Assembly (NCBI RefSeq): GCF_001984155.1
Contig: NZ_MTQO01000051.1
Coordinates: 496,001-560,000 of the forward strand
Direction: 5' to 3'
Origin: Actinosynnema sp. ALI-1.44
GTDB lineage: Bacteria; Actinomycetota; Actinomycetes; Mycobacteriales; Pseudonocardiaceae
Length of the DNA stretch: 64,000 nt
Part shown: piece after piece, positions 3,879 to 48,600 of the stretch
Numbering within the stretch: position 1 is the first letter of the stretch
Layout of the letters: every line of letters begins with the position of its first letter
Notes under the pieces: generated by a model
Database searches by the model: none
The model's input: the letters and a program-made list of their open reading frames with translations, nothing else
What the model was told of the DNA's origin: nothing
Position numbers and translations under genes: made by a program

Positions 3879-3897
3879 TCCGGTAAGGAGTCTCGGC

Positions 3898-6780: not shown

Positions 6781-6816
6781 GGGGCCTGGCTGTCGCGATC
6801 GGGGCGTTGGGACAGA

Positions 6817-16974: not shown

Positions 16975-17063
16975 CAACGATGCCTCGCTCTCGTATTTCG
17001 ACCGGCCGGTCACCGCAGTGACCTGGCCTGGAAGCCCCGCAGCTCAGAGCAAGCGCCGCTACT

Positions 17064-27490: not shown

Positions 27491-28843
27491 TCACCGGCCG
27501 ATGCCGCGGTAGTGGAAGCCGAGCTCACGCAGGCTCCGCACGACGGGGGCCGGGTAGTAGACCCGGCCGTCGAAGACCAGGCACGGCATCCGCGCCCGGG
27601 TCCGCAGCCAGGCGAAGTCGATGTCGTGGAACTGCCGGTGCCCGGCGAGGATCGCCACGGCGTCCGCGCCGTCGACCGCGTCGGCGAGACTGGCTCGCGG
27701 CGCCAGCCGGAACTCGGTGGCGACCTTGGCCGGATCGGCGAGCGGGTCGAACAACGCCACTTCGGTCCCGGCGCCGCGCAGGCTGTCCACCACGCCCCTG
27801 ACCGGGGTTCCGCGGATGTCACCGGTGTCGTTCTTGAACGCCACGCCGAGCACCGCGACCTTGGCCGACGCCGGATCCTTGCCGAGTTTGACCAGCTCGT
27901 CCCGGATGAGCTGACCGGTGTACGCGGGCATCTCGTCGTTGACCCGCCGTGCTGTCTCGATCGTGCGCATGTCCAGACCGCTGTCCTTGGCCGCGCGCCA
28001 CGCCATCCACGGGTCCTTGGTCAGGCATGACCCGCCCACGCCGACACTGGGCAGCAGGATGTTGACGTGCCGCTGGCCCTTGGGCAGCTCGTTGGCGGCG
28101 GCCAGGATGTCCAGCACGTCCACGTCGTAGCCCGCGCACAGCTGGGCGAGTTCGTTGGCGATCGCCACGTTCCCGTCGATCCACCAGTTCGTGGCCAGCT
28201 TGACCAGCTCGGCGGTGTCCGCGGTCGGCACGTGCCGGACCGGGACGCCCAGTGCGCGAGTCCAGAAACCGGCGGCCGCGGCCGAGCTGTCCGGCCCGCA
28301 CCCGCCGACGACCACGGGCAGTTCGGCCAGCTGTGCCATCGCCTCGCCCTCGGCCAGCCGTTCCGGGCAGAACGCCAGCCCGTAGTCCACTTCGTGGGTC
28401 AGGCCGCTGTCGTCCAGCAGTGGAGCCACGAAGGTCCGGGTCGTGCCGGGGGACACCGTGCTCTTGAGGATCACCAGGTGGCCTGGGCGCAGGTGCGGTG
28501 CCAGCCTGCGGCACGCCTCCTCGAGCTGGCCGGTGACCAGCGCGCCGTACTCGTCGACCGGTGTGCCGACGGTGATCAGGACGACGTCCGCGTCCCGAAC
28601 GGCCGCGTAGTCGCTGGTGCACGTCAACAGCGTGGTACCGGCCAGGTCCGCGAGCGCTTCGGCCAGTCCGGGCTCCGGGATGTCCCTCGTGCCGCGACGG
28701 ACCTGGTCGATCACTGCCCGGTCGCTGTCGACCGCCACGACCGGCATGCCCCGACGCGCCAGCGTCACGCCAAGGCAGGTGCCGACGTAGCCGAAGCCGA
28801 TGACAGCCACCCTCATGGAGTCCGTACCGGGAAGGAATCGCAC
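27491..28843 (-). CDS. UDP-glucose/NDP-sugar 6-dehydrogenase
   Basis: The 450 residues cover the UDP-glucose/UDP-ManNAc dehydrogenase fold: N-terminal NAD site VIGFGYVGTCLG, central ATNWWIDGNVAIANELA helix and the catalytic cysteine in GGSCLTKDPW (Cys273). It oxidises C6 of an NDP-hexose to the uronic acid in two NAD-dependent steps. I chose the GTG at 28843 (GGAAAGG six bases upstream); the ATG at 28816 would also work. Together with the decarboxylase-like gene at 33.9 kb it would open a pentose branch, as CalS8 and CalS9 do in calicheamicin. It is the first gene of the operon with two glycosyltransferases. Confidence 0.85.
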   Translation of the reverse strand: MRFLPGTDSMRVAVIGFGYVGTCLGVTLARRGMPVVAVDSDRAVIDQVRRGTRDIPEPGLAEALADLAGTTLLTCTSDYAAVRDADVVLITVGTPVDEYGALVTGQLEEACRRLAPHLRPGHLVILKSTVSPGTTRTFVAPLLDDSGLTHEVDYGLAFCPERLAEGEAMAQLAELPVVVGGCGPDSSAAAAGFWTRALGVPVRHVPTADTAELVKLATNWWIDGNVAIANELAQLCAGYDVDVLDILAAANELPKGQRHVNILLPSVGVGGSCLTKDPWMAWRAAKDSGLDMRTIETARRVNDEMPAYTGQLIRDELVKLGKDPASAKVAVLGVAFKNDTGDIRGTPVRGVVDSLRGAGTEVALFDPLADPAKVATEFRLAPRASLADAVDGADAVAILAGHRQFHDIDFAWLRTRARMPCLVFDGRVYYPAPVVRSLRELGFHYRGIGR

Positions 28844-28957
28844 GACAGCCTTTCCTTTCCGCGCCAGCCCGTCGCGCCGCATGGCGCCGGTGCCGTGGTG
28901 GACCGCACGAGAGGGTGGCGCGTTCACCGCCGCCCGTCCTGCGGGCCAACGAGCGGT

Positions 28958-28980
28958 CGTTAAATGTTTCTTTATGAAGT
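28958..28980 (-). promoter_or_regulatory. AT-rich operator-like element upstream of the 6-dehydrogenase operon
   Basis: On the minus strand this reads ACTTCATAAAG, seven bases, then TAACG, which resembles the elements at 1711, 11710 and 29090 with different internal spacing. It lies 115 bases upstream of the dehydrogenase start in a divergent intergenic region. Confidence 0.4.
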
Positions 28981-29089
28981 GTGGTCGCAGGTCGGGGGTG
29001 TCGTCGGGCCCCCAGGCCGTCATTACCTCCTTATCTTGCTCCTATCGGGTCGACAGGGCAAGCTGTGGTTGGCCGGGTTAGCGTGATCA

Positions 29090-29134: not shown

Positions 29135-30298
29135 GTGATCAACATCTTCCAGCCGTCGCTCGGCGATGCCGAGCTTGCCGCTGTCGCGGAGGTCTTCCGC
29201 AGCAACTGGCTCGGCCGGGGCGCGCGCACCCAGGAGTTCGAGACCAGGTTCGCCAACCACCTCGGCGTCGGCGGTGAGCACGTCACTTCGGCCAATTCGT
29301 GCACCGAGGCGACCTTTCTCGCTGTCGAACTGGCGGGGGTGGGACCGGGGGACGAGGTCGTGTTGCCCGCGGTCAGCTTTGTCGGCGCAGCCAACGCGGT
29401 CGCGTCCGCCGGAGCGCGACCGGTGTTCTGCGACGTGGACCCGCGGACGCTCAACGTCCGCGTCACCGATCTGGAGAAGGCGCTCACCCCGCGGACAAAG
29501 GCGGTGCTCCTGCTGCACTACGGGGGCTACCCCGGCGAGGTCGAACAGATCGCCGAGGTGTGCGAGGACCGGGGCGTCCTGCTGATCGAGGACGCCGCGT
29601 GCGCCGTGGCGTCCAGTGTGGACGGGCGCGCGTGCGGGACCTTCGGTGACATGGGGGTGTGGAGCTTCGACCACGGCAAGGTCGTGGTCACCGTGGACGG
29701 CGGGATGTTCTACGCCAAGGACCCGGACATGGTCGCTGCGGCGGCCAAGCGACTCTACTTCGGCCTCGAGCAGTTCAGCGGCTTCTCCCAGGCGCAGCGC
29801 ACCGACGCGCGCTGGTGGGACTTCGAGGTCTCCTCGTTCTCCCGGCGGTCGATCACCAACGACGTGCTTGCCGCGATCGGCTGCGTGCAGATGGACCGGC
29901 TGCCCGGCTTCCTGCGCAGACGACAGGAGATCGTCACCCGCTACCACAAGGACCTCGCCGACCTGCCCGGCGTGCTGCTGCCACCCCCGCTGCCGCCGGG
30001 CCACGTGAGCTCGAACTACCTGTACTGGCTCCAGATCGACGGCGGCATCCGGGACGTCGTGGCCAAGGACCTTTACGAGAACGGGATCTACACGACCTTC
30101 CGCTATCCGCTGCTGCACCGCGTGGCGGCCTACGGCGCCGGTGACGTGCGGCTGCCGAACGCCGAGCGCGCGGCGGAGATGACCCTGTGCCTGCCGTTGC
30201 ACCAGGCGCTGACCGACGAGGACGTGGACCACACGATCTCGGTGCTGCACGACGCCGTCACCAGTCGCCTGGCCGGTGCCAGGAAGGCGCAGTCGTGA
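29135..30298 (+). CDS. DegT/DnrJ-family sugar aminotransferase
   Basis: The 387 residues carry the Schiff-base lysine Lys182 in SFDHGKVVVTVDGG and the LHYGGYP and EDAACAVAS motifs. The pattern around the lysine (DHGK) differs from the 3-aminotransferase at 20.6 kb and is nearer the 4-aminotransferase/GDP-perosamine-synthase branch, so it probably aminates a different sugar or position. The start is a GTG with GGAG just upstream. Its stop overlaps the first N-methyltransferase start (GTGA), so amination and N-methylation are coupled. Confidence 0.85.
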   Translation: MINIFQPSLGDAELAAVAEVFRSNWLGRGARTQEFETRFANHLGVGGEHVTSANSCTEATFLAVELAGVGPGDEVVLPAVSFVGAANAVASAGARPVFCDVDPRTLNVRVTDLEKALTPRTKAVLLLHYGGYPGEVEQIAEVCEDRGVLLIEDAACAVASSVDGRACGTFGDMGVWSFDHGKVVVTVDGGMFYAKDPDMVAAAAKRLYFGLEQFSGFSQAQRTDARWWDFEVSSFSRRSITNDVLAAIGCVQMDRLPGFLRRRQEIVTRYHKDLADLPGVLLPPPLPPGHVSSNYLYWLQIDGGIRDVVAKDLYENGIYTTFRYPLLHRVAAYGAGDVRLPNAERAAEMTLCLPLHQALTDEDVDHTISVLHDAVTSRLAGARKAQS

Positions 30299-33106: not shown

Positions 33107-33931
33107 ATGAGCAAGCAGCTCAGCAACGTCACGTCCGACAGCGTTGGCGACTTCTACGACGACGTGGCCGGTCTGGTCGAGATCTTCGGCGGGAACCTCC
33201 ACAACGGCTACTGGTACGACGACGCGGACACCACCCCGTGGCTGGAGGCCACCAACAGGCTCGCCGACATCGTCACCGGCAAGCTCGAAGCCCGCCCGGG
33301 GCAGCACGTGCTGGACGTCGGCTGTGGTGTCGGTGTCCCCGCGGTGCGCCTCGCCCAGCGGACCGACGCACGCGTCACCGGCATCACGGTCAGCGGCTGG
33401 CAGGTCAAGGAGGCGACCGCGCGTGCGAACTCGTCCGGTCTGCGTGGCCAGGTTCGGTTCGAGTACGGAAACGCCGAGTCGTTGCCCTACCCGGCGGACG
33501 AGTTCGACGCGGTGCTGGCGTTCGACTCGTTGCCGCACGCGGCGGATCGCGGCCTGTGGCTGCGGGAGATCGCACGGGTGCTGCGGCCCGGCGGCCGGTA
33601 CGTGATCACCGAGTTCACTGCGGACGCGCCACTGACCGCGGACGACATCGAGGTGCTCAAGTTCGGCGAGATGTCCGCGCCGCTGCCGGTCTCCGGAGTG
33701 CTCGACACGGTCACCGCGGCGGGGCTCGTCGTGGACGAGTTCGTCAGCTGCGGCGACAAGATCAGGCGGACGTTCACCGAGTACTTCGCGCACGTGGCCC
33801 GGCGCCGGGAGGCGCTGGCGGACGCGCACGGCGCCGAGAAGGTGGCGATGTACGAGAACGGCATGCGACCGCTGTTCGACATCTGCCGCACCAAGATGGG
33901 GTACGTCATCGTGGCGGGCCACAGGCCCTAG
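33107..33931 (+). CDS. SAM-dependent sugar O-methyltransferase (RebM-like)
   Basis: The 274 residues have the SAM motif VLDVGCGVGVPAVRLA, then VTGITVSGWQVKEA and EIARVLRPGGRYVITEF, the layout of RebM-type 4-O-methyltransferases that act on glycosylated natural products. C-methyltransferases of similar build exist, so the acceptor is uncertain. I chose the ATG at 33107. It is monocistronic, overlapping convergently the stop of the decarboxylase gene by four bases, with its own palindromic control region. Confidence 0.8.
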   Translation: MSKQLSNVTSDSVGDFYDDVAGLVEIFGGNLHNGYWYDDADTTPWLEATNRLADIVTGKLEARPGQHVLDVGCGVGVPAVRLAQRTDARVTGITVSGWQVKEATARANSSGLRGQVRFEYGNAESLPYPADEFDAVLAFDSLPHAADRGLWLREIARVLRPGGRYVITEFTADAPLTADDIEVLKFGEMSAPLPVSGVLDTVTAAGLVVDEFVSCGDKIRRTFTEYFAHVARRREALADAHGAEKVAMYENGMRPLFDICRTKMGYVIVAGHRP

Positions 33932-34884
33932 GACGTCAGCGCCAGCCACCACCGTGCCCCCCGCGCCCATTCGATCGTGGTGGCGAGGCCTTCGGCCACC
34001 TCGGTCGTGGCCCGCCACCCCAGCACCGCCTTGGCCTTGCTGACATCCGGTACACGCCGCTCGATGTCCTCGTAGCGCTCGCCGAGTGTGTGCGCGGTGT
34101 CGACCGACGACACCGTTCCGCCGATCAGGTGCGTCGCGAGCCGCGCGATCTCGCCGATGCTGGTCTCCTGGTCGCTGCCGATGTTGAAGACCTGGCCGTC
34201 GGCTTCGGAGTTGTCGGCGAGGCACACGGTCGCCTCGATGGCGTCGGCGACGTAGGTGAAACACCGCGTCTGCCTGCCACCGTCGTAGACCAGCGCGGGT
34301 TTTCCGGTCAGCAGCCGGTGGATCGTCCGGCTGACGACGTACGCCGGCCGCTGGCGTGGCCCGTAGACGTTGAAGTACCGCACAGTCGACGCCCGCACGC
34401 CGTGCTGCCGGGCGAACCCGTACGTCATGTGCTCGACCACTGCCTTGCTTGACGAATAGGTCCAGCGGTCGGCGGTGGTGGAGCCCAGGACGCGGTCGGC
34501 GTCCTCGGCCCAGGGGATCGCCGGGTTGCGGCCGTACACCTCGCTGGTGCTCGCCATCACGACCTTGGCGCCCGTCGCGTGCACCGCGCGCAGGACGTTG
34601 CGTGATCCCAGCACGTTCACCTCGATCACGTCCAGCGGCCGGGCGAGGTAGCGGTCCACACCGACCATGGCCGACAGGTGGTAGACGGTGTCGGCGCTGT
34701 CGACCACTTCGGACACTCGCCGCTCGTCGAGGATGTCCGCCCGGACGTGTTCGGCGATCCCCTCGATGCCGGGCGGCAGGGGCGCCGGGTCGTAGACCAC
34801 CACTCGGTGTCCGTCCCGGACGAGGCGTTCCACCAGGTGGCTGCCGATGAACCCGCATCCTCCGGTCACGACGGTGTGCGACAT
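33928..34884 (-). CDS. NAD-dependent NDP-sugar decarboxylase/epimerase (extended SDR, CalS9-like)
   Basis: The 318 residues carry the NAD motif TGGCGFIGSHL, the STSEVYG segment and the YSSSK active site (Tyr143, Lys147). The pattern fits UDP-glucuronate decarboxylases and nucleotide-sugar epimerases. With a 6-dehydrogenase in the same locus I favour decarboxylation of an NDP-uronic acid to a 4-ketopentose or xylose, as proposed for the ethylaminopentose of calicheamicin. It is the last gene of the six-gene operon that starts at 41.1 kb. Confidence 0.8.
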   Translation of the reverse strand: MSHTVVTGGCGFIGSHLVERLVRDGHRVVVYDPAPLPPGIEGIAEHVRADILDERRVSEVVDSADTVYHLSAMVGVDRYLARPLDVIEVNVLGSRNVLRAVHATGAKVVMASTSEVYGRNPAIPWAEDADRVLGSTTADRWTYSSSKAVVEHMTYGFARQHGVRASTVRYFNVYGPRQRPAYVVSRTIHRLLTGKPALVYDGGRQTRCFTYVADAIEATVCLADNSEADGQVFNIGSDQETSIGEIARLATHLIGGTVSSVDTAHTLGERYEDIERRVPDVSKAKAVLGWRATTEVAEGLATTIEWARGARWWLALTS

Positions 34885-34914: not shown

Positions 34915-35907
34915 TCAGCTCATCCACGCCCCCGGTGCGGGGCCGCCCGCGCCGATCGGGGGGAACATGATGTCCAATATCGACAGCTCGTCCTCGGTGA
35001 GGGTGATGTGCAGCGCGTTGATCGCGCCGTCGAGCTGCTCGGTGGTGCGGGGCCCGATGACCAGGCCGGTCACACCGGGGCGCGACAACGTCCACGCCAT
35101 GCCCAGTTCGGCGGGGTGGCGCTCGCGTTCGGCGCAGAACCGCTCGTAGGCGGCGATCGTCTCGCGATGGTGGTGCAACGCGGCGGCGGCCCGGCCCTGT
35201 GCGGATTTGACGGCGGTTCCCTCGGTGAGCTTGCGCAGCACGCCGCCCAGCAGGCCACCGTGCAAAGGCGACCAGACCAGTACGCCGATCCCGTACGCCT
35301 GTGCGGCCGGAATGACCTCCAACTCGGTTTCCCGGGTGACGAGGTTCAGCACGCACTGCTCGGCGGCCAGGCCGAACCCGTCGCGGCGAATCGCGGCCTC
35401 CTGCGTCGCGGCGAGGTCCCACCCGGCGAAGTTCGACGAGCCCACATACCGGACTTTGCCCTGGCTCACCAGCTTGTCCATGGCCTGCCAGATCTCGTCG
35501 CGCGGTACCGCGCGATCCACGGTGTGCATCTGGTACAGGTCGATCCAGTCCGTGCCGAGCCTGCGCAGGGACGCGTCGCACGCGGCGACGATGTGCCGGG
35601 CGGACAAGCCCCGGTCCGTCGGGTCGTCGCTCATCGGATTGCCGACCTTGGTGGCGAGCAGCACCTCCGAGCGGCGGCCGACGAGCCACCGGCCGAGCAT
35701 CTCCTCGGTGTATCCCTTGTGGACACGCCAGCCGTAGATGTTCGCCGTGTCCAGGAAGTTGATGCCCTGGGCCAGCGCGTGATCCATCAGCCGGTGCGCG
35801 GCGTCCTCCTCGACGCGGCCGCCGAAGCTCACGGTCCCCAGGCAGAGCCGGGGGATCTTGAGGCCGGTACGGCCAAGCGGTGTGTAGAACCCGTGGTCGT
35901 CGGCCAT
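34915..35907 (-). CDS. Aldo/keto reductase, probable NDP-hexose 3-ketoreductase
   Basis: This 330-residue (beta/alpha)8 reductase has the complete AKR tetrad: Asp53 and Tyr58 (FLDTANIYGW), Lys87 (LLATKVGN) and His128 (YQMHTVD). Natural-product homologues reduce the 3-keto group formed by 2,3-dehydratases using NADPH. GGGAGG lies 7 bases before the ATG at 35907. It follows HypF after 31 bases. It most likely acts with the 2,3-dehydratase at 21.8 kb. Confidence 0.85.
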   Translation of the reverse strand: MADDHGFYTPLGRTGLKIPRLCLGTVSFGGRVEEDAAHRLMDHALAQGINFLDTANIYGWRVHKGYTEEMLGRWLVGRRSEVLLATKVGNPMSDDPTDRGLSARHIVAACDASLRRLGTDWIDLYQMHTVDRAVPRDEIWQAMDKLVSQGKVRYVGSSNFAGWDLAATQEAAIRRDGFGLAAEQCVLNLVTRETELEVIPAAQAYGIGVLVWSPLHGGLLGGVLRKLTEGTAVKSAQGRAAAALHHHRETIAAYERFCAERERHPAELGMAWTLSRPGVTGLVIGPRTTEQLDGAINALHITLTEDELSILDIMFPPIGAGGPAPGAWMS

Positions 35908-35938: not shown

Positions 35939-38275
35939 TCACGCAGGACGCACGTCCGCGGTTCTTGACTGCGAAGCCTCTTGTCCTGCGCGCAGATGCG
36001 CCGCGGCGACCATCGCCTGTCCCGCGGAGACACCGCCGTCCGTCGGTGGGATCCGGCTGTGGTGCAGCACTCGGAATCCCTCGGCGGTCAGCAGCTCTGT
36101 GGCGCTTACGGCCAGATACCGGTTGAGGAACACCCCTCCGCTGCAGACCACGGTCGCGAGTCCGGTGTCCCGGCGCATCCGGCAGCACACCTCCACGACG
36201 GCGGTGGCGAGGCTCTCGTGGAACCGCCTGCTCAGCTCCTGTGCGGGCACCTCGGTGACCTGTCCGGCGATGGCCCGGATCCACGGCCTGGTGTCCACCA
36301 CGTGCTTGCCGTCCACCAGCGTCACCCGGACCGGCCACGGACCGGCCGGGTCGTGCCGTCCACCGAGCAGTTCTTCCAGGAGGATCGCGGCTTCCGCCTC
36401 GTAGCTGATCCGCGTGCAGACGCCGAGCAGCGCCGACACACCGTCGAACATGCGGCCCGCGCTCGACGTCACCGGCGCGTTGACGCCCTTGGCGCACATC
36501 GTGAGCAGCAGGTCCCGTTCCTCAGTCGGCCGGCCGGTGAGCACAGCGTGGTCGAGATCCCGCGCCTGCTCGCCGAAAGCCTCGAACAGCAGGGCAAGGG
36601 CGACCCGGTCGGTCTCCAGCACGGCCCGGTCACCGCCGGGCAGCCGGAACGGCCGCAGATGGCCAAGCCGGGAGAACCGCCGGTAGTCCCCGGCCAGGAA
36701 CTCGCCGCCCCAGATCGTGCCGTCGGTGCCGAGACCGGTGCCGTCGAAGATCACGCCGAGCACGGGTTCGTCGAGGTTGTTGTCGAGCATGCACGAGGCC
36801 ATGTGCGCGTGGTGGTGCTGGACGCCGATCCGCGGCAGGTCGAGGCAGCCGGCGTACCTGGTGCTGTAGAAGTCGGGATGCAGGTCGTGCGCGACCACGG
36901 CGGGTGTCATGTCGAACATGTGCCGCAGGTGCTCGACGCTTTCGACGAGGAAACGCCGGTTGCCCTCGGACTTCAGGTCACCGATGTGCTGCCCGAGGAT
37001 CAGCCGGTCGCCCGAGGCGAGGCACGCGGTGTTCTTCAACTCCGGTCCGACCGCCAGTACGGCGGGCATCGGGAACGGGGGAGTGATCGGCCGCGGAACA
37101 TGCCCACGGGCACGGCGGATGACCTGCTGCCGCGGGCCGGTGGCCAGCGGCAGCACCCGGGCGATCGAGTCGTCCACCCTGGCGTGGATCTCCCTGTTGT
37201 GTTCAAGGAAGGCGTCGCAGATGGTGCCGAGGTCACGCCGAGCCTGGTCGGCCGTGGTGGCCATGGGTTCGCCGGGCGCGTTGCCGCTCGTCGCCACCAG
37301 GACCGGGAACCCCGCCGAGAGCAGCAGGTGCTGCATCGGGGTCGACGGCAGCATCGCGCCGAGGGTGCCGAGCCCCGGCGCGACCTGTTCGGCGAGGCCG
37401 CTCGGTCGCAGCCTGGTCAGCAGGACGATCGGCCGTGCGGCGGACCGGAGCAGCTCCGCCTCGGCGGCCGAGACGTGGGCGTGTTGGCGTAGGGTCCCGA
37501 CGTCGTCGGCGAGCACCGCGAACGGCTTGCCGCCCCGCTCCTTGCGGGCCCGCAGCCGTCCGACGGCCGCGTTGTCGGCGGCATTGACCATCAGCTGGTA
37601 GCCACCGTGTGCCTTCACGGCGATCGTGGCGCCCGCGCGGAGCAGTTCGGCCGCGGCGGGCAGGCAGTCGCCTTCGGCCAGCAGCTGTCCGTCCGTGGCG
37701 ACGAGCCGAACTCGTGGCCCGCACACCGGACAGGCGTTGGGCTGTGCGTGGAACCGCCGGTCGGTGACCGTGTCGTATTCGGACTGGCACTGCGGACACA
37801 TCCGGAAGTCGGCCATCGTGGTCGACTCCCGGTCGTACGGGATGTCGCGGATGATGCTGAACCGGGGGCCGCAGTCGGTGCAGTTGATCAACGGGTACCG
37901 GTAGCGGCGGTCGTCCGGGGTGAGCAGTTCCGCACGGCACGGGTCGCACACGTGTGTGTCCGCGGGAACCAGGGCCCGCCGGGGCCCGGTCGAGTCGCTG
38001 CGCTCGATCCGGAAGCCGCTGACCGGCTGGGTGATCTCCTCGTCGACGTACTCACACGTCTCGATGACAGCCAACGGAGGCGGGTGTTCCCGAAGCGCGC
38101 GGGTGAAGCCCTCGACAGCGGCCATCCGGCCTTCGACGCACACCACGGCTCCGCCGGTGCCGTTCTTCGTCCAGCCACCGAGCCCGTGCTCCCCGGCGAC
38201 CCGGACGACGAACGGCCGGAACCCCACCCCCTGCACGATGCCCCGCACCGTGAGGGTCCTGCGTACGGAGGTCAT
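35939..38275 (-). CDS. hypF: Carbamoyltransferase HypF (full length)
   Basis: The 778 residues contain every HypF domain in order: acylphosphatase (VRGIVQGVGFRPF, residues 10-22), two zinc fingers (CDPC...CTDCGPR and CPQC...CPVCGPR, ~110-190), YrdC-like domain (KAHGGYQLM, KPFAVL, ATSGN, ~200-390) and a Kae1-like C-terminal domain with HDLHPDF, QHHHAHMASC and DGTGLGTDGTIWGGE. HypF turns carbamoyl phosphate and ATP into carbamoyl-adenylate and loads the carbamoyl group on the C-terminal cysteine of HypE. Its ATG overlaps the HypE stop. No hydrogenase subunits or HypA/B/C/D are in the window. The TobZ-type O-carbamoyltransferases of antibiotic pathways lack the acylphosphatase and zinc parts, so this is a genuine HypF. 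Confidence 0.95.
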   Translation of the reverse strand: MTSVRRTLTVRGIVQGVGFRPFVVRVAGEHGLGGWTKNGTGGAVVCVEGRMAAVEGFTRALREHPPPLAVIETCEYVDEEITQPVSGFRIERSDSTGPRRALVPADTHVCDPCRAELLTPDDRRYRYPLINCTDCGPRFSIIRDIPYDRESTTMADFRMCPQCQSEYDTVTDRRFHAQPNACPVCGPRVRLVATDGQLLAEGDCLPAAAELLRAGATIAVKAHGGYQLMVNAADNAAVGRLRARKERGGKPFAVLADDVGTLRQHAHVSAAEAELLRSAARPIVLLTRLRPSGLAEQVAPGLGTLGAMLPSTPMQHLLLSAGFPVLVATSGNAPGEPMATTADQARRDLGTICDAFLEHNREIHARVDDSIARVLPLATGPRQQVIRRARGHVPRPITPPFPMPAVLAVGPELKNTACLASGDRLILGQHIGDLKSEGNRRFLVESVEHLRHMFDMTPAVVAHDLHPDFYSTRYAGCLDLPRIGVQHHHAHMASCMLDNNLDEPVLGVIFDGTGLGTDGTIWGGEFLAGDYRRFSRLGHLRPFRLPGGDRAVLETDRVALALLFEAFGEQARDLDHAVLTGRPTEERDLLLTMCAKGVNAPVTSSAGRMFDGVSALLGVCTRISYEAEAAILLEELLGGRHDPAGPWPVRVTLVDGKHVVDTRPWIRAIAGQVTEVPAQELSRRFHESLATAVVEVCCRMRRDTGLATVVCSGGVFLNRYLAVSATELLTAEGFRVLHHSRIPPTDGGVSAGQAMVAAAHLRAGQEASQSRTADVRPA

Positions 38276-39288
38276 CAGCACAGCCTGGGGAGTTGAGCGC
38301 CGTACAACAGGTCGACGGGGCTCGTTCTCCCGTTCGCGTCACGCATCCGGACGTGCCCGCCGCCCGCGGACACCGTGCCGACCACGGCAGTGTGCGCTGT
38401 CTCCGGATGTCCGCGCAGCACCTCGACGGCAGTGGACACACTCGCCTCGTCGGCGACGACGCACAACACTCCTTCGTTGGCCAGGTAGATCACGTCGACC
38501 CCCAGCATCTCGGCGGCCATCTTGGTCTCGTGCCGCACTGGCAACGCCTCCGCGTCGACGCACAGATCCACAGTGGACGCGGAGGCGAGTTCGTTGAGCA
38601 CGGTTCCGAGGCCACCACGGGTCACGTCACGCACGCAGTGCACACCGTTACCACACGCGGCCAGGACGTCCGCCACGACGTGGTTGAGCGGCGCGCAGTC
38701 GCTGAGAACCCGTTTCTCGAACCCGAGGCCTTCCCGCAGCGACAGCAAGTGCACACTGTGGTCGCCGAGATGACCGGTGACGATGACGCGGTCGCCCGGC
38801 TTGAGCGACCGCGAGTTGAGGTCCGGTGTGCCCGGCTCGAACACGCCGACTCCGGTGGTGTTGAGGTAGATCCCGTCGGCCTGGCCCCTGTGCACCACCT
38901 TCGTGTCACCGGCCACTATGGACACACCGGCGGCCCTGGCGGTGTCCCGGACGCTGGTCAGGATCCGGACGAGGTCGGCGATGGGGAAGCCCTCCTCGAT
39001 GATCATCGCGAGGGTCAGGTACATCGGCCTGGCACCGGACACCGCGAGGTCGTTCACGGTTCCGGCGACCGCGACCTTGCCGATGTCGCCGTTGCCGAAG
39101 AACACCGGGTCCACCACGAACGAGTCCGTGGTCACCGCGATCCGCCCGGTCGTGACCGGGACGGTGGCGCTGTCCTCCATCTGCCCGACGTACACCGCGC
39201 CGAGCGTCGTGGCCACCACACCGGTGATCAGCTCGTGGCTCAGCCCGCCGCCCGCGCCGTGGTCAAGGGTGATCTTGTCGCCGGTCAT
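38275..39288 (-). CDS. hypE: HypE (carbamoyl dehydratase, thiocyanate-forming)
   Basis: The 337 residues cover the AIR-synthase-like ATPase fold with LDHGAGGGLSHELI at the N-terminus, VVAGDTKVV, and the diagnostic C-terminal tail ending PRLC with cysteine as the last residue (Cys337). HypF carbamoylates this Cys, and HypE dehydrates it with ATP to a protein thiocyanate, the source of cyanide ligands in [NiFe] hydrogenases. AAGGAG sits 5 bases before the ATG at 39288. With both partners intact and overlapping, the pair should be able to form enzyme-bound thiocyanate. The acceptor here is unknown. Confidence 0.95.
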   Translation of the reverse strand: MTGDKITLDHGAGGGLSHELITGVVATTLGAVYVGQMEDSATVPVTTGRIAVTTDSFVVDPVFFGNGDIGKVAVAGTVNDLAVSGARPMYLTLAMIIEEGFPIADLVRILTSVRDTARAAGVSIVAGDTKVVHRGQADGIYLNTTGVGVFEPGTPDLNSRSLKPGDRVIVTGHLGDHSVHLLSLREGLGFEKRVLSDCAPLNHVVADVLAACGNGVHCVRDVTRGGLGTVLNELASASTVDLCVDAEALPVRHETKMAAEMLGVDVIYLANEGVLCVVADEASVSTAVEVLRGHPETAHTAVVGTVSAGGGHVRMRDANGRTSPVDLLYGAQLPRLC

Positions 39289-39308: not shown

Positions 39309-39893
39309 TCACGAGGCTGGCGCGGGCATGACCTCGGCGAGGGTGCCGTCCTTGACCCGCCGGACCACGTCGCTCATCGGCAGCACGGCCCCGCAGTACG
39401 AGCCGATCCAGTCCAGCGCTCGCTGGGTGTCCGCCGGACGTTCGGAGATCACACCCTCCTGGGGTACGCAGACGTTGTAGCCCCGGAAGTACGCGTCCGC
39501 GGCCGTGGTCTGCACACAGATCTGCGTGTGCATGCCCACCACGATCACGTCCTGCACGCCGGCGTCCCGCAGGATCCGGTCGAGGTCGGTCTCGAAGAAC
39601 CCGCTTGCCTGGTGCTTGCACACGGTGACGTCCACGTCGGCCACGATGTCCGTGAGCACGGCACGACCAGGCGAGTCCGCGGTCGCGGGCAGCCAGCCGT
39701 CGTACCGCTCGGCCCTCGGATCCTCCGGGCGGTTGATCAGCTGCAGGTGTACGACGAGGACATCGAGCGACCGCAGGGTGTCCAGGAACTCCGCGAGCCG
39801 CGGCACCACCGAGTACACCACGTCGCGACGTTCCTCGCTCTTGTTGACCAAGTCGTACTGCAGGTCGTTGGTGAGTACCGCAACCTTCGGCAT
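39309..39893 (-). CDS. Isochorismatase-like cysteine hydrolase
   Basis: The 194 residues carry the family triad Asp10 (LTNDLQYD), Lys93 (VCKHQASGF) and Cys126 (GMHTQICVQTTAADA), so a thiol-dependent amidohydrolase such as nicotinamidase, ureidoacrylate or N-carbamoylsarcosine hydrolase is more likely than an isochorismatase, where the Cys is often absent. AAGGA precedes the ATG. It lies 20 bases upstream of HypE in the same operon. Hydrolysis of a carbamoyl, nitrile-derived or amide group would fit those neighbours (inference). Confidence 0.8.
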   Translation of the reverse strand: MPKVAVLTNDLQYDLVNKSEERRDVVYSVVPRLAEFLDTLRSLDVLVVHLQLINRPEDPRAERYDGWLPATADSPGRAVLTDIVADVDVTVCKHQASGFFETDLDRILRDAGVQDVIVVGMHTQICVQTTAADAYFRGYNVCVPQEGVISERPADTQRALDWIGSYCGAVLPMSDVVRRVKDGTLAEVMPAPAS

Positions 39894-39903
39894 AGCAACG
39901 TCC

Positions 39904-41136
39904 TTACCGTCCGGCCGGTACATGTCGGACGACGCGCACCTCCGGAACATAGAGGATCCAACTGCCGCCGGCCTCGAGGAACGCCTGTTCCTTGGCGATG
40001 ATCTCGTCGGCGTGGTTCCACGCGAACAACAGGGCGTAGTCGGGGTACGGGTCGCGGAACGCGTCCGGTGGGCGGACCGGGATGTGCGTCCCCGGCACCA
40101 GCCTGTGCTGTTTGGACGGAGTCGAGTCGCAGACGTACGGGACCAGGTCGGGACCGATGCCGCAGTAGTTGGTGACTGTGGTGACCTTCCCCGGCGCGCC
40201 GTAGCCGACCACCGTCCGGCCGTCCTGCTTCAGCTGCTCGAGCAGCCCGACGAGATCGTGCCGGATCCGTTCGACCGCGCTGCGGAACCGCCGGTAGGTG
40301 TCGGGCTTGGTGAGCTCCTCCTCCTGGGCGAGCAGGCTTCGCACGTTGGCCGTCCGGGCACGCTGCCCGGGTAGGGCAAGGGTGTAGCGCATGGAGCCGC
40401 CGTGCAGCGGCGTCGGCTCGGCGTCGATGAGTTCGAAGCCGAACCGCCGGGCCATGGACTGGACCGAGCGGACGGTGAAGAAGTAGAAGTGCTCGTCGTA
40501 CAGCTGGTCGAAGGCCATGCCGTTGATCACGGTACCCAGGTACGGCTCCTCGAACACGAAGATGCCGCCGGGCTTGAGCAGCGCGGCGACTCCGCGCATG
40601 AGCGAGTCCGCGTAGGGGATGTGGCAGATCGTGTTGGCTGCGAAGATCACGTCGGCCGGGCCGTGCGTCGAGCGGATGCGGACCGCGGTCTCCTCTTCGA
40701 AGAACTCCCGGAGTACGTCGATTCCCTTGGCCGCGGCCAGTTCGGCCACACCGCCCGCGGGCTCGACGCCGAGGTGCCGCACGCCCGCCTTGGCGATCCT
40801 GGCCAGCATCACACCGTCGTTGCAGCCGATCTCGACAACGAAGGCGTCCTTTGTAGATAGTTCGCGGGCGAGGAAGTTGGTTGCCACACTGGTGAAGTGA
40901 TCACGATGGGTGGCTGATCCGGAGGCTCGGTACGGATAGCCGTCGTGGTACTTGAGATCTCTGGGGACCTCCTCGAGAAGCTGCATCATCGAGCAGTCCC
41001 GGCAGGCGCCCATCGCGAGGCGGTAGAAGAACTCGTCCGTCGTCTGGTCAGGGCGGGGGAAGCTGTTGGCGAGTGGCTGCCGTCCCAGGTCGAGCAGCTC
41101 GTCGACCAAGCCTCCGCACAACCGGCAACCGAGCAT
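39904..41136 (-). CDS. NDP-hexose C-methyltransferase (TylCIII/CloU-type)
   Basis: The 410 residues have the three-domain layout of sugar C-3/C-5 methyltransferases: N-terminal zinc site (CRLCGG near residue 4, CRDC near 51), central SAM domain (VVEIGCNDGVML) and C-terminal domain with VGYGAPGKVTTVTNYCGI and FAWNHADEI. It methylates an NDP-4-ketosugar carbon, giving a branched sugar. The ATG at 41136 has no ribosome-binding site, but a -35/-10 pair ends six bases before it, so the gene is probably translated from a leaderless mRNA. First gene of the C-methyltransferase/hydrolase/HypE/HypF/AKR/decarboxylase operon. Confidence 0.85.
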   Translation of the reverse strand: MLGCRLCGGLVDELLDLGRQPLANSFPRPDQTTDEFFYRLAMGACRDCSMMQLLEEVPRDLKYHDGYPYRASGSATHRDHFTSVATNFLARELSTKDAFVVEIGCNDGVMLARIAKAGVRHLGVEPAGGVAELAAAKGIDVLREFFEEETAVRIRSTHGPADVIFAANTICHIPYADSLMRGVAALLKPGGIFVFEEPYLGTVINGMAFDQLYDEHFYFFTVRSVQSMARRFGFELIDAEPTPLHGGSMRYTLALPGQRARTANVRSLLAQEEELTKPDTYRRFRSAVERIRHDLVGLLEQLKQDGRTVVGYGAPGKVTTVTNYCGIGPDLVPYVCDSTPSKQHRLVPGTHIPVRPPDAFRDPYPDYALLFAWNHADEIIAKEQAFLEAGGSWILYVPEVRVVRHVPAGR

Positions 41137-41204: not shown

Positions 41205-41240
41205 TTACGCGTAACACCGTAAGTCGTTAGTTTAGTAAAC
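41205..41240. promoter_or_regulatory. Operator cluster in the divergent region before the enediyne cassette
   Basis: Two symmetric sequences lie here: the perfect palindrome TTACGCGTAA (41205-41214) and GTTTA-G-TAAAC (41230-41240). The minus strand of the second reads TTTACTAAACTAA (41227-41239), matching the operator at 17065-17077 at 12 of 13 bases. It sits between the HypEF operon and the enediyne cassette and could control both. Confidence 0.6.
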
Positions 41241-41805
41241 GATAGTTATGTCCGAGGGTGGATCCCGGGTGTCTCGGTCGGCGCGGGGGCTGCCGCGCGC
41301 CCGTGGAGTGGCCGCCGTGGGCGGGGGAGCCTGTTGGCTCGGATCCCGGCGTCGACCGTCGGCTGCGGCGCCGATGTTGTCAACAGCCGTCCGGGCTGGT
41401 ACCAAGCTTGGTAGTCGGATCTACGGTGAAGGTCAGTCTGGGGCTGGCGGCACTCTGGCTGTTGAACAAACGTCCGTCGGAATGTTCGCGCGCCGTCCAG
41501 GCAGGTTGTCGCGGCGATCTTGTCGTGTCAAGCTATAAGAGTCTAAAGTTGATCGACCGACTGGCATAAGTGCAGGACTTGACCGGCCGGGCTCGCTTGG
41601 AGCAAGTTCGGAGATCTTCTCTGGCGCGGTATCGGTACAGGTGTAACCCTGCGTAGTGGTGTTAGTGTATATGTGCGAACGTCCCAGGTCGGCCTTGTCT
41701 CCGGTCGATGGATCCTGGTAGCCATAAGGAGCTCGAGTAGCTATCGAAGGTTGAACCGAAAGCCTTCGCTCGAGTGTCAGCATTTGTCAGTTGGGGGAAA
41801 GCCGC
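41241..41805 (+). promoter_or_regulatory. 565-base gap upstream of the enediyne cassette
   Basis: I see no convincing gene here; short open frames lack family features and ribosome-binding sites. AT-rich spots such as AAGCTATAAG near 41531 may be promoter elements. A stem-loop occupies 41732-41774. The length suggests a long leader or additional regulator sites for the PKS operon. Confidence 0.4.
41732..41774 (+). promoter_or_regulatory. Leader stem-loop just before the enediyne cassette
   Basis: CGAAGG (41745-41750) pairs with CCTTCG (41763-41768) around a 12-base loop, and flanking CTCGAG copies (41732-41737 and 41769-41774) can pair outside a 7-base bulge. It ends about 30 bases before the E3 start codon and could affect translation or transcript stability. 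Confidence 0.4.
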
Positions 41806-42753
41806 ATGGCATGGACTCCTGTCTCCAGAACAACTGAGAAGCGGTCACTGCTGCGGTTGCCGCTCAGCATGGCTGATTTCGAAAAACGCGGTTTTAGGAC
41901 CGACCGGCCGGACGGCAGAGCCGTGCTGGAGCTGCACGCACGCAGCTTTCTCGCCGGTTTCAACCATGCGACAGCCTCGTGGCGTGACCCGCACGAGGCT
42001 CTTGCGACCGTTCCCGACGAAGAACGCGGCTTCGCCTACGAGGGTGCGGGGATGTTCGCCGGGATACTGGATCTCGCGACCGCCGGACGCGCCCGTGCGC
42101 TGGACCGTCTGCTGGCCGGACCCGGTGCCGCCTACACGCATCTCGTCCACGTGGGCGCCGGATGGTTCTTCACCGTGGCAAGGGTTTCCGCTGTGCCGAA
42201 GCTTCCGTCCACACCGTTGTTGCGCTGGCTGGCACTGGACGGATCGGGGTTCGGTGAGGTCTACTTCGGTGGTTTGCCCGCGCTGTACCGGCGTGCCCGC
42301 CGGAAGCCGTCACCCAGATGGGAAGCAAGGATGGCTGGGTGCGGGCGGGCGTTGTGGTTCGTCGAGTCCGCTGACGCCGAGGGCGTCGCCACCGTCATCC
42401 GGAAGGCGGCGCAGCCTGCCCAGCCCCATCTGTGGGCGGGGGTGGGGCTCGCTTTGGCGTACGCGGGTGCCACCGACGACGCCGGGCGCGACCGGCTGGT
42501 GGACGCGGCGGGTCCACATCGCGCACATCTGTCGCAGGGCGTCGTTTTCGCGGTGGGCGCGCGGTTCCGGTCGGGGATCGTGCCCGCGCACACCGAACGC
42601 GCCTGCGCCCAACTGCTGGATGTCGACGTCGCACAGGCTGCGGCGTGGACCGACGACACGTCGACGGACCTGGGCGGCACCAGCGACGTCGGATCGTATC
42701 TGCGTTGGAAAGCAAGGCTGCGCGCGCTGATCGCGCGGCAAAGCCGCACCTGA
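41806..42753 (+). CDS. E3: Enediyne cassette protein E3 (UnbL-like, DUF1702)
   Basis: The 315 residues match DUF1702, the E3/UnbL family found next to enediyne PKS genes. Characteristic stretches are FLAGFNHA near residue 45, FAYEGAGMFAGILD, VGAGWFFTVAR, FVESADAEGVA and FAVGARFR. Function is unknown, although the family is required for or conserved in enediyne core maturation. GGGGGAAA lies 5 bases before the ATG at 41806. It is the first gene of the E3-E4-E5-E-E10 run. Confidence 0.9.
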   Translation: MAWTPVSRTTEKRSLLRLPLSMADFEKRGFRTDRPDGRAVLELHARSFLAGFNHATASWRDPHEALATVPDEERGFAYEGAGMFAGILDLATAGRARALDRLLAGPGAAYTHLVHVGAGWFFTVARVSAVPKLPSTPLLRWLALDGSGFGEVYFGGLPALYRRARRKPSPRWEARMAGCGRALWFVESADAEGVATVIRKAAQPAQPHLWAGVGLALAYAGATDDAGRDRLVDAAGPHRAHLSQGVVFAVGARFRSGIVPAHTERACAQLLDVDVAQAAAWTDDTSTDLGGTSDVGSYLRWKARLRALIARQSRT

Positions 42754-44681: not shown

Positions 44682-45670
44682 CGGCGACAGTGCCCCCAGC
44701 GGCAACAGACGCAACGAAGACGACGGTCGCCGAGTCGGCCGAGTCCGTCAAGCAGGTCTCCGCCCCGCCGCTTGCCCCGCAGGCGCGCAGGGTCCGGGCG
44801 CTGGCCAGGTTCGCGACCACGATCACGATCTTCAACATCGTCGGGCACGCGCTGCTCGGCTTCGAGCAGGCGCCGATCACCCCGATCGTCGCCGCGCTGG
44901 TGAGCTACGCCAGCATCATCCTGTTCGAGATGCTGGACGCGTGGGCGCACGATCGGACGCCGGAGTACGCCGGCGGCTGGAAGAACATGGTGGTCTTCCT
45001 GCTGCCCGCGCACATCACCGGCCTCGCGTGCGGCATGTTGTTGTGGGGTAACGCGTCGTTGTGGCCGTATGTGCTGGCTATCGTGATCGCGAACGGGTCG
45101 AAGTACGCGTTCCGTCTTCGTGTGCGCGGGCGGCTGCGGCACGTGTTGAACCCGTCCAACTTCGGCATCGTCGTGGTCCTGCTGGTGTTCCCGTGGGTCG
45201 GCATCGCCCCGCCGTACCACTTCACCAGCTTCACCATCGGCGGGCTGGACTGGTTGCTGCCCCTGGGCATCCTGATGTTCGGCACGATGCTGAACCTCAA
45301 GCTGACCGGCAAGATGCCGTTGATCCTCGCCTGGCTCGGCGGGTTCGCGGCGCAGGCGGTGCTCCGGTGGGCGATCTTCGACCACGCGCTGATCGGCGCC
45401 TTGCTGCCGATGACCGGCCTGGCGTTCATCCTGTTCACCAACTACATGATCACCGACCCGGCGACGAGCCCGATGGTCCCGCGCAACCAGGTCGTCTTCG
45501 GGCTGACGTGTGCGGCCGTCTACGGCGTGCTGGTGCTGTCGGGTGTGGTGTTCGGTCTGTTCTTCGCGCTGGTGATCACCTGTGGTCTGCGTGGTGTCGT
45601 GCTCTACGTGGCGCCTCGGCTGCCGAGGTCCGCGCCCGCGCCCGCGCCTGTGCCACGGAGCAGTACATGA
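44678..45670 (+). CDS. E5: Enediyne cassette protein E5 (UnbU-like membrane protein, RnfD/NqrB-related)
   Basis: This 330-residue protein has a soluble N-terminal ~45 residues and then about eight to nine transmembrane helices. The segments LNPSNFGIVVVLLV and NYMITDPATSP recall flavin-binding subunits RnfD/NqrB, to which UnbU is distantly related. A membrane redox or transport role is possible; none is proven. Both ends overlap neighbouring genes (ATGA with E4 and with the PKS), so production is coupled to the PKS. Confidence 0.9.
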   Translation: MTATVPPAATDATKTTVAESAESVKQVSAPPLAPQARRVRALARFATTITIFNIVGHALLGFEQAPITPIVAALVSYASIILFEMLDAWAHDRTPEYAGGWKNMVVFLLPAHITGLACGMLLWGNASLWPYVLAIVIANGSKYAFRLRVRGRLRHVLNPSNFGIVVVLLVFPWVGIAPPYHFTSFTIGGLDWLLPLGILMFGTMLNLKLTGKMPLILAWLGGFAAQAVLRWAIFDHALIGALLPMTGLAFILFTNYMITDPATSPMVPRNQVVFGLTCAAVYGVLVLSGVVFGLFFALVITCGLRGVVLYVAPRLPRSAPAPAPVPRSST

Positions 45671-48600
45671 GTGACCGGATCGCGATCGTCGGGATGAGCT
45701 GCCGGTATCCCGACGCCGTGAACACCGGTGAGCTGTGGCAGACGGTCCTCGGGCGGCGCCGTGCCTTTCGGCGGCTGCCCGAGCAGCGTCTGTCCTCGGC
45801 GTACCTGGGTTCGGCCGACGAGACCGAGCGCACGTACGTCCGCAGCGCCGGAGTGTTGCGGGACTACCGGTTCGACCGGGAACGGTTCGGCGTGCCCGGT
45901 CCGCTGTACCGCGCCGCCGACCAGACGCACTGGCTGGCGCTGGAAACGGCGGCCGACGCGCTGGCAGACGCGGGCTACCCGGAGGCACGCGGGCTGGACC
46001 GGGACCGGGTCGGCGTGATCCTGGGAAACACGCTCACCGGGGAGTTCACGCGGGCCGCGCAGGTGCGGTACCGCTGGCCGTTCCTGCACCGGGCCGCGAG
46101 CGCCGCACTGAGCACCGCCGGGGTGGGGAGCGACCAGGCCGAGCGGACACTGGCCGAGTTGGAGGCGCTGGTCAAACAGCCGTTCCCAGTGCCAGGCGAC
46201 GAATCTCTGGCCGGTGCGCTCGCCAACACCATCGCGGGCCGGATCTGCAACTACTTCGACCTCGGCGGTACCGGGTACACGGTGGACGGTGCGTGCTCGT
46301 CGAGCTTGCTCGCGGTGCTGCACGCCTGCCGTGCCCTGGTCTCCGGCGAGTTGGACTTCGTGCTGGCCGGTGGGGTCGACCTGAGTCTCGACCCGTTCGA
46401 GCTGGTCGGGTTCTCCAGGCTGGGTGCGCTGGCGGACGGTGAGATGCGGATCTACGACGCCAGCCCGACCGGCTTCCTGCCAGGCGAGGGTGCCGGGGTC
46501 GTGGCGCTGGTGCGTGCCGAGGACGCCGAGGCGGCGGGACTGCGCGCGTACGCGACCGTCATCGGCTGGGGGACGTCGTCGGACGGCGCCGGTGGGCTGA
46601 CCCGCCCCAAGGAGGCCGGGCAGGCCAGGGCACTGCGGCGGGCCTACCGGATCGCGCAGGTCGACCCGGTCTCGGTCGGGCTCGTCGAAGGGCACGGCAC
46701 TGGTACCGCGGTGGGCGACGCCGTCGAACTGCATGCCCTGGTCGGGATCCGCGGAGCCGGTGCGCCGCGCGCCGCACTCGGGTCCGTCAAGGCCAACATC
46801 GGCCACACCAAGGCGGCGGCCGGTGTCGCCGGGCTGATCAAGGCGACGCTCGCCCTGCACCATCGGGTCCTTCCGCCGACCACAGGCTGCGAGGACCCGC
46901 ACGAGTTGCTGCGCCTCCCGGAAACCCCGCTGCGAGTGCTGGACGAACCGGAGCCGTGGACCGCGGCGGTCCGGCGCGCGTCGGTGTCCTCGATGGGTTT
47001 CGGCGGAATCAACGCGCACGTCGTGCTGGAAGGCAGCCCCGGTAGGAGCGGGACCATCCCGGCGGGCGTTCGAGCGTGGAGCAAGCCGCTGCCCCCGGCC
47101 GAGATCGTCCTGCTGTCGGCGCCGTCCCAGGCGGAACTGGCCGTCCGGCTGGAAGCGATCAGCGCGCGGGCCGGCCAGCTCAGCAACGCGGAACTGCACG
47201 ATTTCGCCGCCACCGAACACCGCCGGTACCGCAATCAGGTGTTCCGGTGCGCACTGGTCGCCGGGAGCCCGGAGGACCTGGCGGCGCAGGCCAGGAACGC
47301 GTGCGAACGGCTGTCCGGTTGGGACGGCCGCCTCGTGGTGCGAGAAGGCGGATACGTCCTCGCCAGCGGACCACCCGCCAAAGTGGGGCTGCTGTTCCCC
47401 GGCCAGGCGTCCCCGGTTCGCACGAGGCTCGACTGGTGGGCCCGTGACCTGGACGTACCGGATCTGCCCGACGGCGACGTGCGCGACGGGGACACGGACA
47501 CCGCTGTCGCGCAGCCTGTGATCGTTCGGCAGTCACTGGCCGCCATCGCGTGGCTCGACACCGTCGGCTGTCGTGCCGTCGGAGCGGCCGGCCACAGCCT
47601 TGGCGAGATCAGCGCCCTGGTGTGGGCCGGTGCCCTGACCCCGGAGGACGGCCTGACGCTGGCGGCCACGCGCGGCCGGTTGATGGCCGACTACGGCGTG
47701 CCCGGCACCGCGATGGCCAGCCTCGGCGTCGGCACGGACCGGTTGTCGGAGTTGCTGGCCGGACTGGAGGTCTCGGTATCCGGGGTGAACGCGGCGGACC
47801 GGACCACCGTCGCCGGGGCGCGGGACGACGTCGCCGCCGTCGTGGAAAGGGCGGGACGCAGGGGGATCTCGGCGACCATGTTGCAGGTGTCGCACGGTTT
47901 CCACAGCGCGGCCATGCGCCCCGTTCGAGCTCCGCTGCACGCCGCGGTGCGGTCGCTGGAGTACGGCCCACTGCGGCGTCCGGTGTTCTCCACCGTCACC
48001 GGCAAGTCGTTGCCTGACCGCCCGGACCTGCCGAACCTGCTGGTCGAGCAGCTGACCGAGCCGGTCTGGTTCACCGACGCGCTGCAAGGCCTGGTCGCGT
48101 CCTGTGACCTGCTGGTGGAGGCAGGCAGCGGGACCAGCCTCACGTCGCTCGTCGGTCCGGATGTGGTTGCCGTGTCGATGGACTGCGGTGTCCCGGCCCG
48201 GCACGCGCTCGCGACGGCGGCGATCGCCGCCGTCGGGGCGGGAAACCTGGAGCCTTGGTTCGCCGGGCGGGCGCACCGGACGCTGGACATCGACGCGCCG
48301 ATGACGTTCCTGGCCAACCCGTGCGAGGTGATCACCGCCCCGCCGACCACGCCGACCGCCACACGCCAGGAAACCGCGCCCGAGCCGGAGATCAGTGCAC
48401 AGGGCGGGTCGATCGACGTCGTGCGCCGGTATCTGAGCACCACGCTGGAGCTGCCGGTGAGCTCGATCGAGCCGCACCGGACGCTGCTGGGTGACCTGCA
48501 CCTGAACTCGTTGCAGGTGCTGCAGACCGTCGCCGCGGTGGCCAAGGTGCTTGGCGTCGAGCCACCCGGGATGCCCGAGACGCTGGCCGACACGACCGTG

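Follow-up and report, generated by a model that had tools for sequence, protein, structure and literature searches.

HypF and HypE are established as the enzymes that convert carbamoyl phosphate to a thiocyanate for [NiFe]-hydrogenase maturation. The papers examined treat the pair as the supplier of the cyanide ligands in these hydrogenases, with the exception of one passing note on a decRiPPter candidate locus that holds hypE, hypF and an ATP-grasp ligase gene and no other hyp genes, where the pair is said to have 'adopted a novel function' (PMC7794033, 2020). The HypE-HypF pair analyzed here is encoded in a 64,000-nucleotide stretch of the genome of Actinosynnema sp. ALI-1.44 (contig NZ_MTQO01000051.1, positions 496,001 to 560,000; hereafter the window), among the sugar genes of an enediyne-type cluster. 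The pair is preceded by the gene of an isochorismatase-like cysteine hydrolase (IHL), and the three genes form a cassette, IHL-HypE-HypF, that is almost certainly independent of hydrogenase.

Exact patterns for two conserved IHL peptides, run against a collection of 84,980 genomes with one genome per species, matched 49 loci, which the exactness of the patterns makes a lower bound. Together with five plasmid loci, a second locus on contig C28 of the same genome, the window itself and four loci from genomes of the same family (L070, L073, L076 and L077), these gave 60 stretches, which we compared by strand and gene order only, gap figures being distorted by over-long marker open reading frames. 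IHL, HypE and HypF follow one another in this order on one strand in 54 of them, including two with apparent frame breaks (L033 and L055) and one in which a transporter gene separates HypE from HypF (L116); four others are incomplete (L014, L047, L054 and L057), L047 being truncated and L057 lying at a contig end. The hosts extend from Actinomycetota to Proteobacteria, Sorangium and Cohnella, and include Streptomyces, Saccharothrix, Amycolatopsis, Nocardia, Nonomuraea, Photobacterium, Psychromonas, Paraburkholderia, Rhizobium and several Enterobacterales. Among plasmid records, the ten with an IHL match are also the ten best HypE records, and the coordinates of the two matches adjoin. The marker is rare in the window's own family, where 8 of 297 genomes, that of the window included, have an IHL match at E 1e-20, and the cassette of an Escherichia locus (L053) found no megablast match in ecoli_genomes. 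The original observation of the HypE-HypF pair is correct and goes beyond chance, and its setting is broader than was first noted.

The cassette HypEs are also a group of their own. In a tree of 104 HypEs, which excludes the broken cassette proteins of L033, L047 and L055 and contains no archaeal or deep-branching HypE, 54 cassette proteins form one clade (support 0.935) apart from 50 hydrogenase-type proteins, the latter being 20 encoded beside HypD and the 30 top matches of a class sample, whose HypD neighbors were not checked individually. The HypE terminal motif is given in a passage of PMC4506123 as PR(I/V)C, a pattern that the window protein, ending in PRLC, does not fit; PRLC closes 54 of the 54 cassette proteins and PRIC 50 of the 50 hydrogenase-type ones. 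A loop differs as well, reading mostly FFGNG in the cassette group (G 94%, N 96%) versus FFPGG in the hydrogenase-type group (P 98%, G 100%), and D51, D124, K126, R216, R220 and the terminal Cys are conserved at more than 97% in both. Where a HypE stands beside HypD in a cassette-bearing genome, it ends in PRIC (20 of 20 loci returned). In the class sample, 86 of the 91 listed HypE places were examined, the other five being two from the genome of the window and three partial matches: 83 end in PRIC, none of them with an IHL in its stretch of ~4 kb, two have other ends, and the single PRLC protein is the only one accompanied by an IHL. HypD itself scores above cut-off in 22 of 51 cassette genomes (those of the scan loci other than L054 and L057, 47 of the 49, and four more), gives a weak match in one and no match in 28, and the cassette is therefore not dependent on HypD.

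Plasmid pBPHY02 of Paraburkholderia phymatum (L115) carries a PRLC cassette near the structural genes of a [NiFe]-hydrogenase, a trap for annotation, and the same record has a second HypE match.

The genome (11.7 Mb, 54 contigs, completeness 100, contamination 4) yielded no match anywhere to HypA, HypD or the [NiFe]-hydrogenase large subunit, no search having been made for HypB or HypC; the control search with HypD was positive in 4 of the 14 named genomes, including E. coli. A previous sequence-only reading had remarked on the lack of hydrogenase genes and other hyp genes near the pair, had proposed a role in biosynthesis instead, and had considered that a hydrogenase operon elsewhere, without its own hypEF, would make this the housekeeping copy. 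For the three proteins searched, the absence extends to the whole genome and no such operon appears in it; with the PRLC clade and the recurrence beside an IHL, a biosynthetic rather than a hydrogenase function is well supported.

The genome does contain two hypE and two hypF genes above the family cut-offs, the window pair and that of contig C28. The C28 set is again IHL-HypE-HypF, its IHL 44% identical to that of the window, and is followed by a class III aminotransferase that scores 515.6 bits against TIGR00709, the diaminobutyrate transaminase model (cut-off 401.6), and below the cut-offs of narrower models. This is apparently a separate small-molecule locus (C28:138000-157500, L006). Close by on the opposite strand are genes for an LmbE-like deacetylase and an ornithine-carbamoyltransferase-like protein.

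Both window proteins are intact. The two open reading frames are confirmed at the positions first assigned to them, with the TGA of HypE overlapping the HypF start codon, and the domain matches agree with the earlier description of a four-domain HypF and a HypE with a C-terminal cysteine. HypE reaches 404 bits against TIGR02124 (cut-off 252), retains its terminal Cys and aligns over its length with the solved HypEs 3vti_C (256 bits), 2z1t_A and 2i6r_A. HypF reaches 726 bits against TIGR00143 (cut-off 466), aligns with 3vth_A (596 bits) and is built of an acylphosphatase domain (10-92), a zinc-finger region with two zinc-finger stretches (the best at 161-194), a YrdC domain (212-390) and a Kae1-like domain with both of its parts (406-755). 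Across the cassettes, the eight zinc-finger Cys residues and the HHHAH motif of HypF are invariant in 54 of the 54 proteins compared, Arg22 in 52 of 52 aligned and Asn40 in 53 of 53 aligned, conserved residues that we take to be catalytic.

The hydrolase belongs to PF00857 (100 bits, cut-off 27) and to no named subfamily such as RutB, biuret hydrolase or nicotinamidase, since all four NCBIfam models that it matched give scores far short of their cut-offs. Its Asp, Lys and Cys, presumably the catalytic triad, are invariant in the 26 proteins compared; C167 is a further invariant residue. Hydrolases of biuret, triuret and N-carbamoylsarcosine belong to the same fold family.

To describe the surroundings of the cassettes, we counted genes in the same uninterrupted run in 47 of 51 stretches (L014, L047, L054 and L057 left out), each similarity cluster being labeled from a Pfam scan of one or a few of its proteins. 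The recurrent partners are class III aminotransferases (13 stretches), nonribosomal peptide synthetases (13), ATP-grasp-like proteins (11, a label drawn from a longer cluster member and reading by eye, members of 422 and 424 residues having no Pfam match), serine hydroxymethyltransferase (SHMT)-like pyridoxal phosphate enzymes (7), HAD phosphatases (6) and DegT aminotransferases (3). Several settings can be told apart. Class III aminotransferase genes often occur with ATP-grasp-like, M20 peptidase and exporter genes, and also with a small protein that by eye resembles a heme-oxygenase-like diiron oxidase (HDO); peptide synthetase genes occur with SHMT-like and glutamine-amidotransferase-like genes; and a further group has ATP-grasp ligases. 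What looks like an amino-sugar operon combines genes for a short-chain dehydrogenase/reductase (SDR), a DegT aminotransferase, NUDIX and inositol-phosphatase-like proteins and an exporter, the SDR and the aminotransferase clustering with those of the window. In enterobacteria, a Salmonella plasmid included, a LysR gene diverges from IHL-HypE-HypF, a HAD phosphatase gene and a major facilitator superfamily (MFS) transporter gene.

Two loci deserve separate mention. On Salmonella plasmid p28NP1 (L117, 4047-11101), the LysR/IHL-HypE-HypF-HAD-MFS operon is compact, with similar ones in Citrobacter and Escherichia, and looks like a means to make a small exported metabolite from few genes. A Streptomyces clavuligerus plasmid (L114, 14086-21323) has the cassette with arginase-family, ATP-grasp and DUF3865 genes, the first and last of these as annotated, and S. 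sulfonofaciens has arginase-family and DUF3865 genes by eye; the HypEs of the two species are 67-68% identical to that of the window, and S. clavuligerus, a well-studied species, is a practical place to hunt for a product.

The cassette is no speciality of enediyne clusters. The window does carry an enediyne-type cluster: its iterative polyketide synthase (PKS), with domains in KS-AT-ACP-KR-DH order, is accompanied by DUF1702 and FG-GAP/UnbV proteins, companions typical of enediyne clusters, and similar sets occur at other loci. We searched 394 genomes for DUF1702 at E 1e-30 and took all 27 loci found other than that of the window. IHL, HypE and HypF are absent from all 27 within up to 20 kb, four of the stretches being cut by contig ends to less than 10 kb on one side, and the cassette as a general feature of enediyne clusters was rejected. 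A relative of the enediyne PKS is present at 20 of these loci, with at least 40% identity at 19 and a match of only 31% at one; the seven without one are possibly not enediyne loci. In another genome of the family (G260), a cluster has IHL, HypE and HypF 65-71% identical to those of the window, together with relatives of the window's UDP-glucose dehydrogenase (64%), SDR (62%) and aldo-keto reductase (65%) and of its glycosyltransferase, methyltransferase, transporter and SBP56-like genes, and no PKS or UnbV-like relative was found in 140 kb. The empty DUF1702 loci and the G260 sugar genes without a PKS indicate that the cassette travels with the sugar side of the cluster and not with the enediyne core. 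The sequence-only reading thus stands as to a biosynthetic use away from hydrogenase, and is revised as follows: the unit is three genes including the hydrolase rather than a pair, and it recurs in peptide synthetase, ATP-grasp, amino-sugar and small enterobacterial operons.

In the window, the cassette is part of a minus-strand operon that runs from a sugar C-methyltransferase through IHL, HypE and HypF to an aldo-keto reductase and a nucleoside diphosphate (NDP)-sugar SDR, with successive spacings of 10 bp, 20 bp, the HypE/HypF overlap, 31 bp and 30 bp; Pfam and NCBIfam matches uphold these neighbors as initially named. Coordinates are collected in the table, where the start codons of the methyltransferase, IHL and aldo-keto reductase are our choice and the NovU-type label is our assumption.

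Table. Genes of the cassette operon and of related functions in the window (positions counted from its first nucleotide).
Feature	Position	Strand	Remarks
Sugar C-methyltransferase (Methyltransf_13/14), presumed NovU-type, first operon gene	39904..41136	-	PF08484 185 bits, PF08421 66 bits; open reading frame opens at 41217
IHL	39309..39893	-	D10, K93, C126, plus C167 as an additional invariant Cys; residues counted from M at 39893
HypE, carbamoyl dehydratase family	38275..39288	-	TIGR02124; C-terminal LPRLC
HypF, four-domain S-carbamoyltransferase	35939..38281	-	TIGR00143; start at 38281 (GTG) or 38275 (ATG)
Aldo-keto reductase, sugar reductase	34915..35907	-	PF00248 221 bits; 65% identical relative in G260 cluster
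NDP-sugar SDR, 4,6-dehydratase/UDP-glucuronate decarboxylase type	33928..34884	-	PF01370 183 bits; 62% relative in G260
UDP-glucose dehydrogenase family	27491..29023	-	PF03721/PF00984/PF03720; 64% relative in G260
DegT-type sugar aminotransferase, outside the cassette operon	29135..30298	+	PF01041 281 bits; other family models below cut-offs
Iterative enediyne-type PKS, KS-AT-ACP-KR-DH order	45061..50997	+	
DUF1702 protein, enediyne PKS companion	41791..42753	+	PF08012 228 bits

Every NCBIfam match of the SDR is below cut-off; together with the UDP-glucose dehydrogenase, this enzyme suggests a UDP-pentose branch. In all, the window encodes two DegT aminotransferases, and it also has genes for an UnbV-like protein, a 2,3-dehydratase and several methyltransferases and glycosyltransferases. 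An acetolactate-synthase-like thiamine pyrophosphate enzyme (15277-17013) and a KAS III-like protein (13654-14661) might fit a two-carbon-branched, acylated sugar. Genes for a SufS-like cysteine desulfurase, a cystathionine gamma-lyase/synthase-type enzyme, a homocysteine S-methyltransferase and TldD/PmbA proteins (2592-9572) make up a sulfur and protease set that may serve to build a sulfur group or to protect the producer. Two related proteins are encoded at 23291-25036 and 62675-64000, the first with a faint SBP56 match, and G260 has a 61% relative immediately upstream of its IHL gene, as well as a B12-binding radical SAM gene (L070:7142-9109) ~1.2 kb beyond HypF. A repeat search across the region gave nothing usable.

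We lean, at somewhat better than even confidence, toward a reading in which the cassette is self-contained and makes an activated one-carbon-nitrogen (C1-N) unit for specialized metabolism, delivered via the IHL. HypF would convert carbamoyl phosphate to carbamoyl adenylate and then carbamoylate the C-terminal Cys of HypE, and HypE would use ATP to dehydrate this group to HypE-S-CN, as expected of intact and conserved enzymes; that the HypE thiocyanate forms is likely, judging from the protein sequences. The Cys of the IHL would then accept the group from HypE, replacing the iron-sulfur HypC-HypD scaffold, and we regard the IHL as the probable receiving partner. The final recipient would be a small-molecule nucleophile, usually an amine, to give N-cyano, guanidino or 2-aminooxazoline-like groups, or ureido groups after hydrolysis. 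An amine is proposed because of the class III, SHMT-like and DegT partners and because the C28 aminotransferase passes TIGR00709, and we hold it at just under even confidence. In the window, the acceptor would be an amino sugar of the enediyne, which the DegT aminotransferase of the table could make; that the cassette acts on a sugar of this cluster is a conjecture we also place slightly short of an even chance. More tentative still is a general cyanyl-transfer module, in which HypF and HypE make the thiocyanate and the IHL delivers CN to amines (amino sugars, diaminobutyrate or sugar phosphates), yielding cyanamides, cyclic isoureas or guanidines. A nitrile-bearing enediyne product, cyanosporaside, is known. 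The isothiocyanate of paulomycin was considered as a parallel and dropped, as passages of PMC4425429 name ThiF and cysteine desulfurase genes and the words 'hydrogenase' and 'carbamoyl' are absent from that paper.

Several observations weigh against parts of this reading. The IHL is divergent in L019 and L114, lies several kb from HypF in L014 and stands alone without HypEF in L054, so that it need not be the physical partner of HypEF and could be a downstream hydrolase instead. Among its structural neighbors, nicotinamidases, maleamate amidases and isochorismatases also rank at tied Z, so that they do not fix its substrate. The peptide synthetase and ATP-grasp-like settings (13 and 11 of the 47 stretches) do not by themselves indicate an amine, and the aminotransferase of the window lies outside the cassette's own run. 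HDO-like genes are seen by eye near some cassettes and none was noticed in the window, so acceptors may differ; and in the 22 cassette genomes with HypD elsewhere, cross-talk with that system is possible.

Among other explanations, the least improbable, which we still consider unlikely, is that HypE is an S-carbamoyl carrier that performs no dehydration, and that the IHL transfers the carbamoyl to an amine or a hydroxyl, forming a urea or carbamate. Carbamates and ureas are commoner than cyanamides in natural products, and amidohydrolases of biuret, triuret and N-carbamoylsarcosine are among the enzymes that the IHL resembles; however, HypE aligns over its full length with solved HypEs and keeps residues conserved in both HypE groups, such as D51, D124, K126, R216, R220 and the terminal Cys, and simpler carbamoyltransferases exist, as described in passages of PMC6022934, that would need no HypE. 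The cassette might instead be an independent passenger making a separate small metabolite unrelated to the enediyne, as its occurrence in very different loci, small plasmid operons included, and its absence from the other 27 enediyne-type loci might suggest. We give this a low probability, as the window cassette sits mid-operon between a sugar C-methyltransferase and the reductase and SDR genes, where neighbors overlap or are 10 to 31 bp apart, and as the G260 cluster keeps it with the same UDP-sugar genes.

Release of thiocyanate or cyanide by HypEF for sulfur chemistry, be it trisulfide assembly, sulfane-sulfur handling or self-protection, is less probable again. The SufS-like desulfurase, cystathionine gamma-lyase/synthase-type enzyme and TldD/PmbA pair of the window would suit it, yet they lie ~26 to 36 kb away, and sulfur genes are not among the labeled recurrent neighbor clusters, though some neighbors lack identification; sulfane-sulfur handling by the pair, raised in the sequence-only reading, has little support. 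That these are housekeeping [NiFe]-hydrogenase maturation genes located here by chance is hardly credible: both proteins do pass the curated family cut-offs, but the genome has no detected HypA, HypD or large subunit and the PRLC clade is separate from the hydrogenase type.

The recurrence of the cassette in varied, mostly biosynthetic-looking loci of distant bacteria suggests that bacteria reuse HypEF chemistry to add a carbon-nitrogen unit to natural products. A clade, a partner and many biosynthetic settings of its own would make this chemistry a reusable tool for nitrogen-rich natural products, and, if cyanyl transfer is right, a way of making C-N triple bonds that differs from the known oxime, amide-dehydration and diiron pathways. 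An IHL adjoining a PRLC HypE provides a handle for genome mining, the cassette flags clusters whose products should bear an unusual C1-N group, and whether the HypE thiocyanate has recipients other than iron becomes a question for the bench with soluble proteins.

Apart from PMC7794033, no link of HypEF to a product appears among the open-access literature matches listed, and no description of the three-gene cassette was found in the open-access literature, a subscription paper being possible. HypEF chemistry is known, and the cassette, with its own HypE clade, appears undescribed in searchable open-access papers. The decRiPPter candidate likewise has hypE and hypF as its only hyp genes, in a locus predicted to be biosynthetic, and probably belongs to the ATP-grasp group of cassettes; the passages of that paper concerned with it do not mention an IHL, the PRLC clade, a wide spread or an enediyne (PMC7794033). 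N-carbamoylsarcosine amidase and the triuret and biuret hydrolases resemble the window IHL in fold and in the conserved Asp, Lys and Cys, and the IHL differs from them in subfamily scores below cut-off, the invariant Cys167 and its genetic tie to HypEF. The O-carbamoyltransferases TobZ and Asm21, according to passages of PMC6022934, use a carbamoyl adenylate route and YrdC- and Kae1-like domains, as HypF does, but in reversed order, without acylphosphatase or zinc-finger parts and on hydroxyl substrates, and would need no HypE; the window HypF does not have their Kae1-before-YrdC architecture. The HypE-HypF of [NiFe]-hydrogenase maturation (e.g. PDB 3vti) has the same families, domains and conserved residues and presumably the same chemistry. 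The window system differs from it in its linkage to an IHL, in a genome with no HypA, HypD or large subunit found, and in a HypE with PRLC and a loop that is mostly FFGNG in its group, where the hydrogenase proteins have PRIC and FFPGG and form a separate clade.

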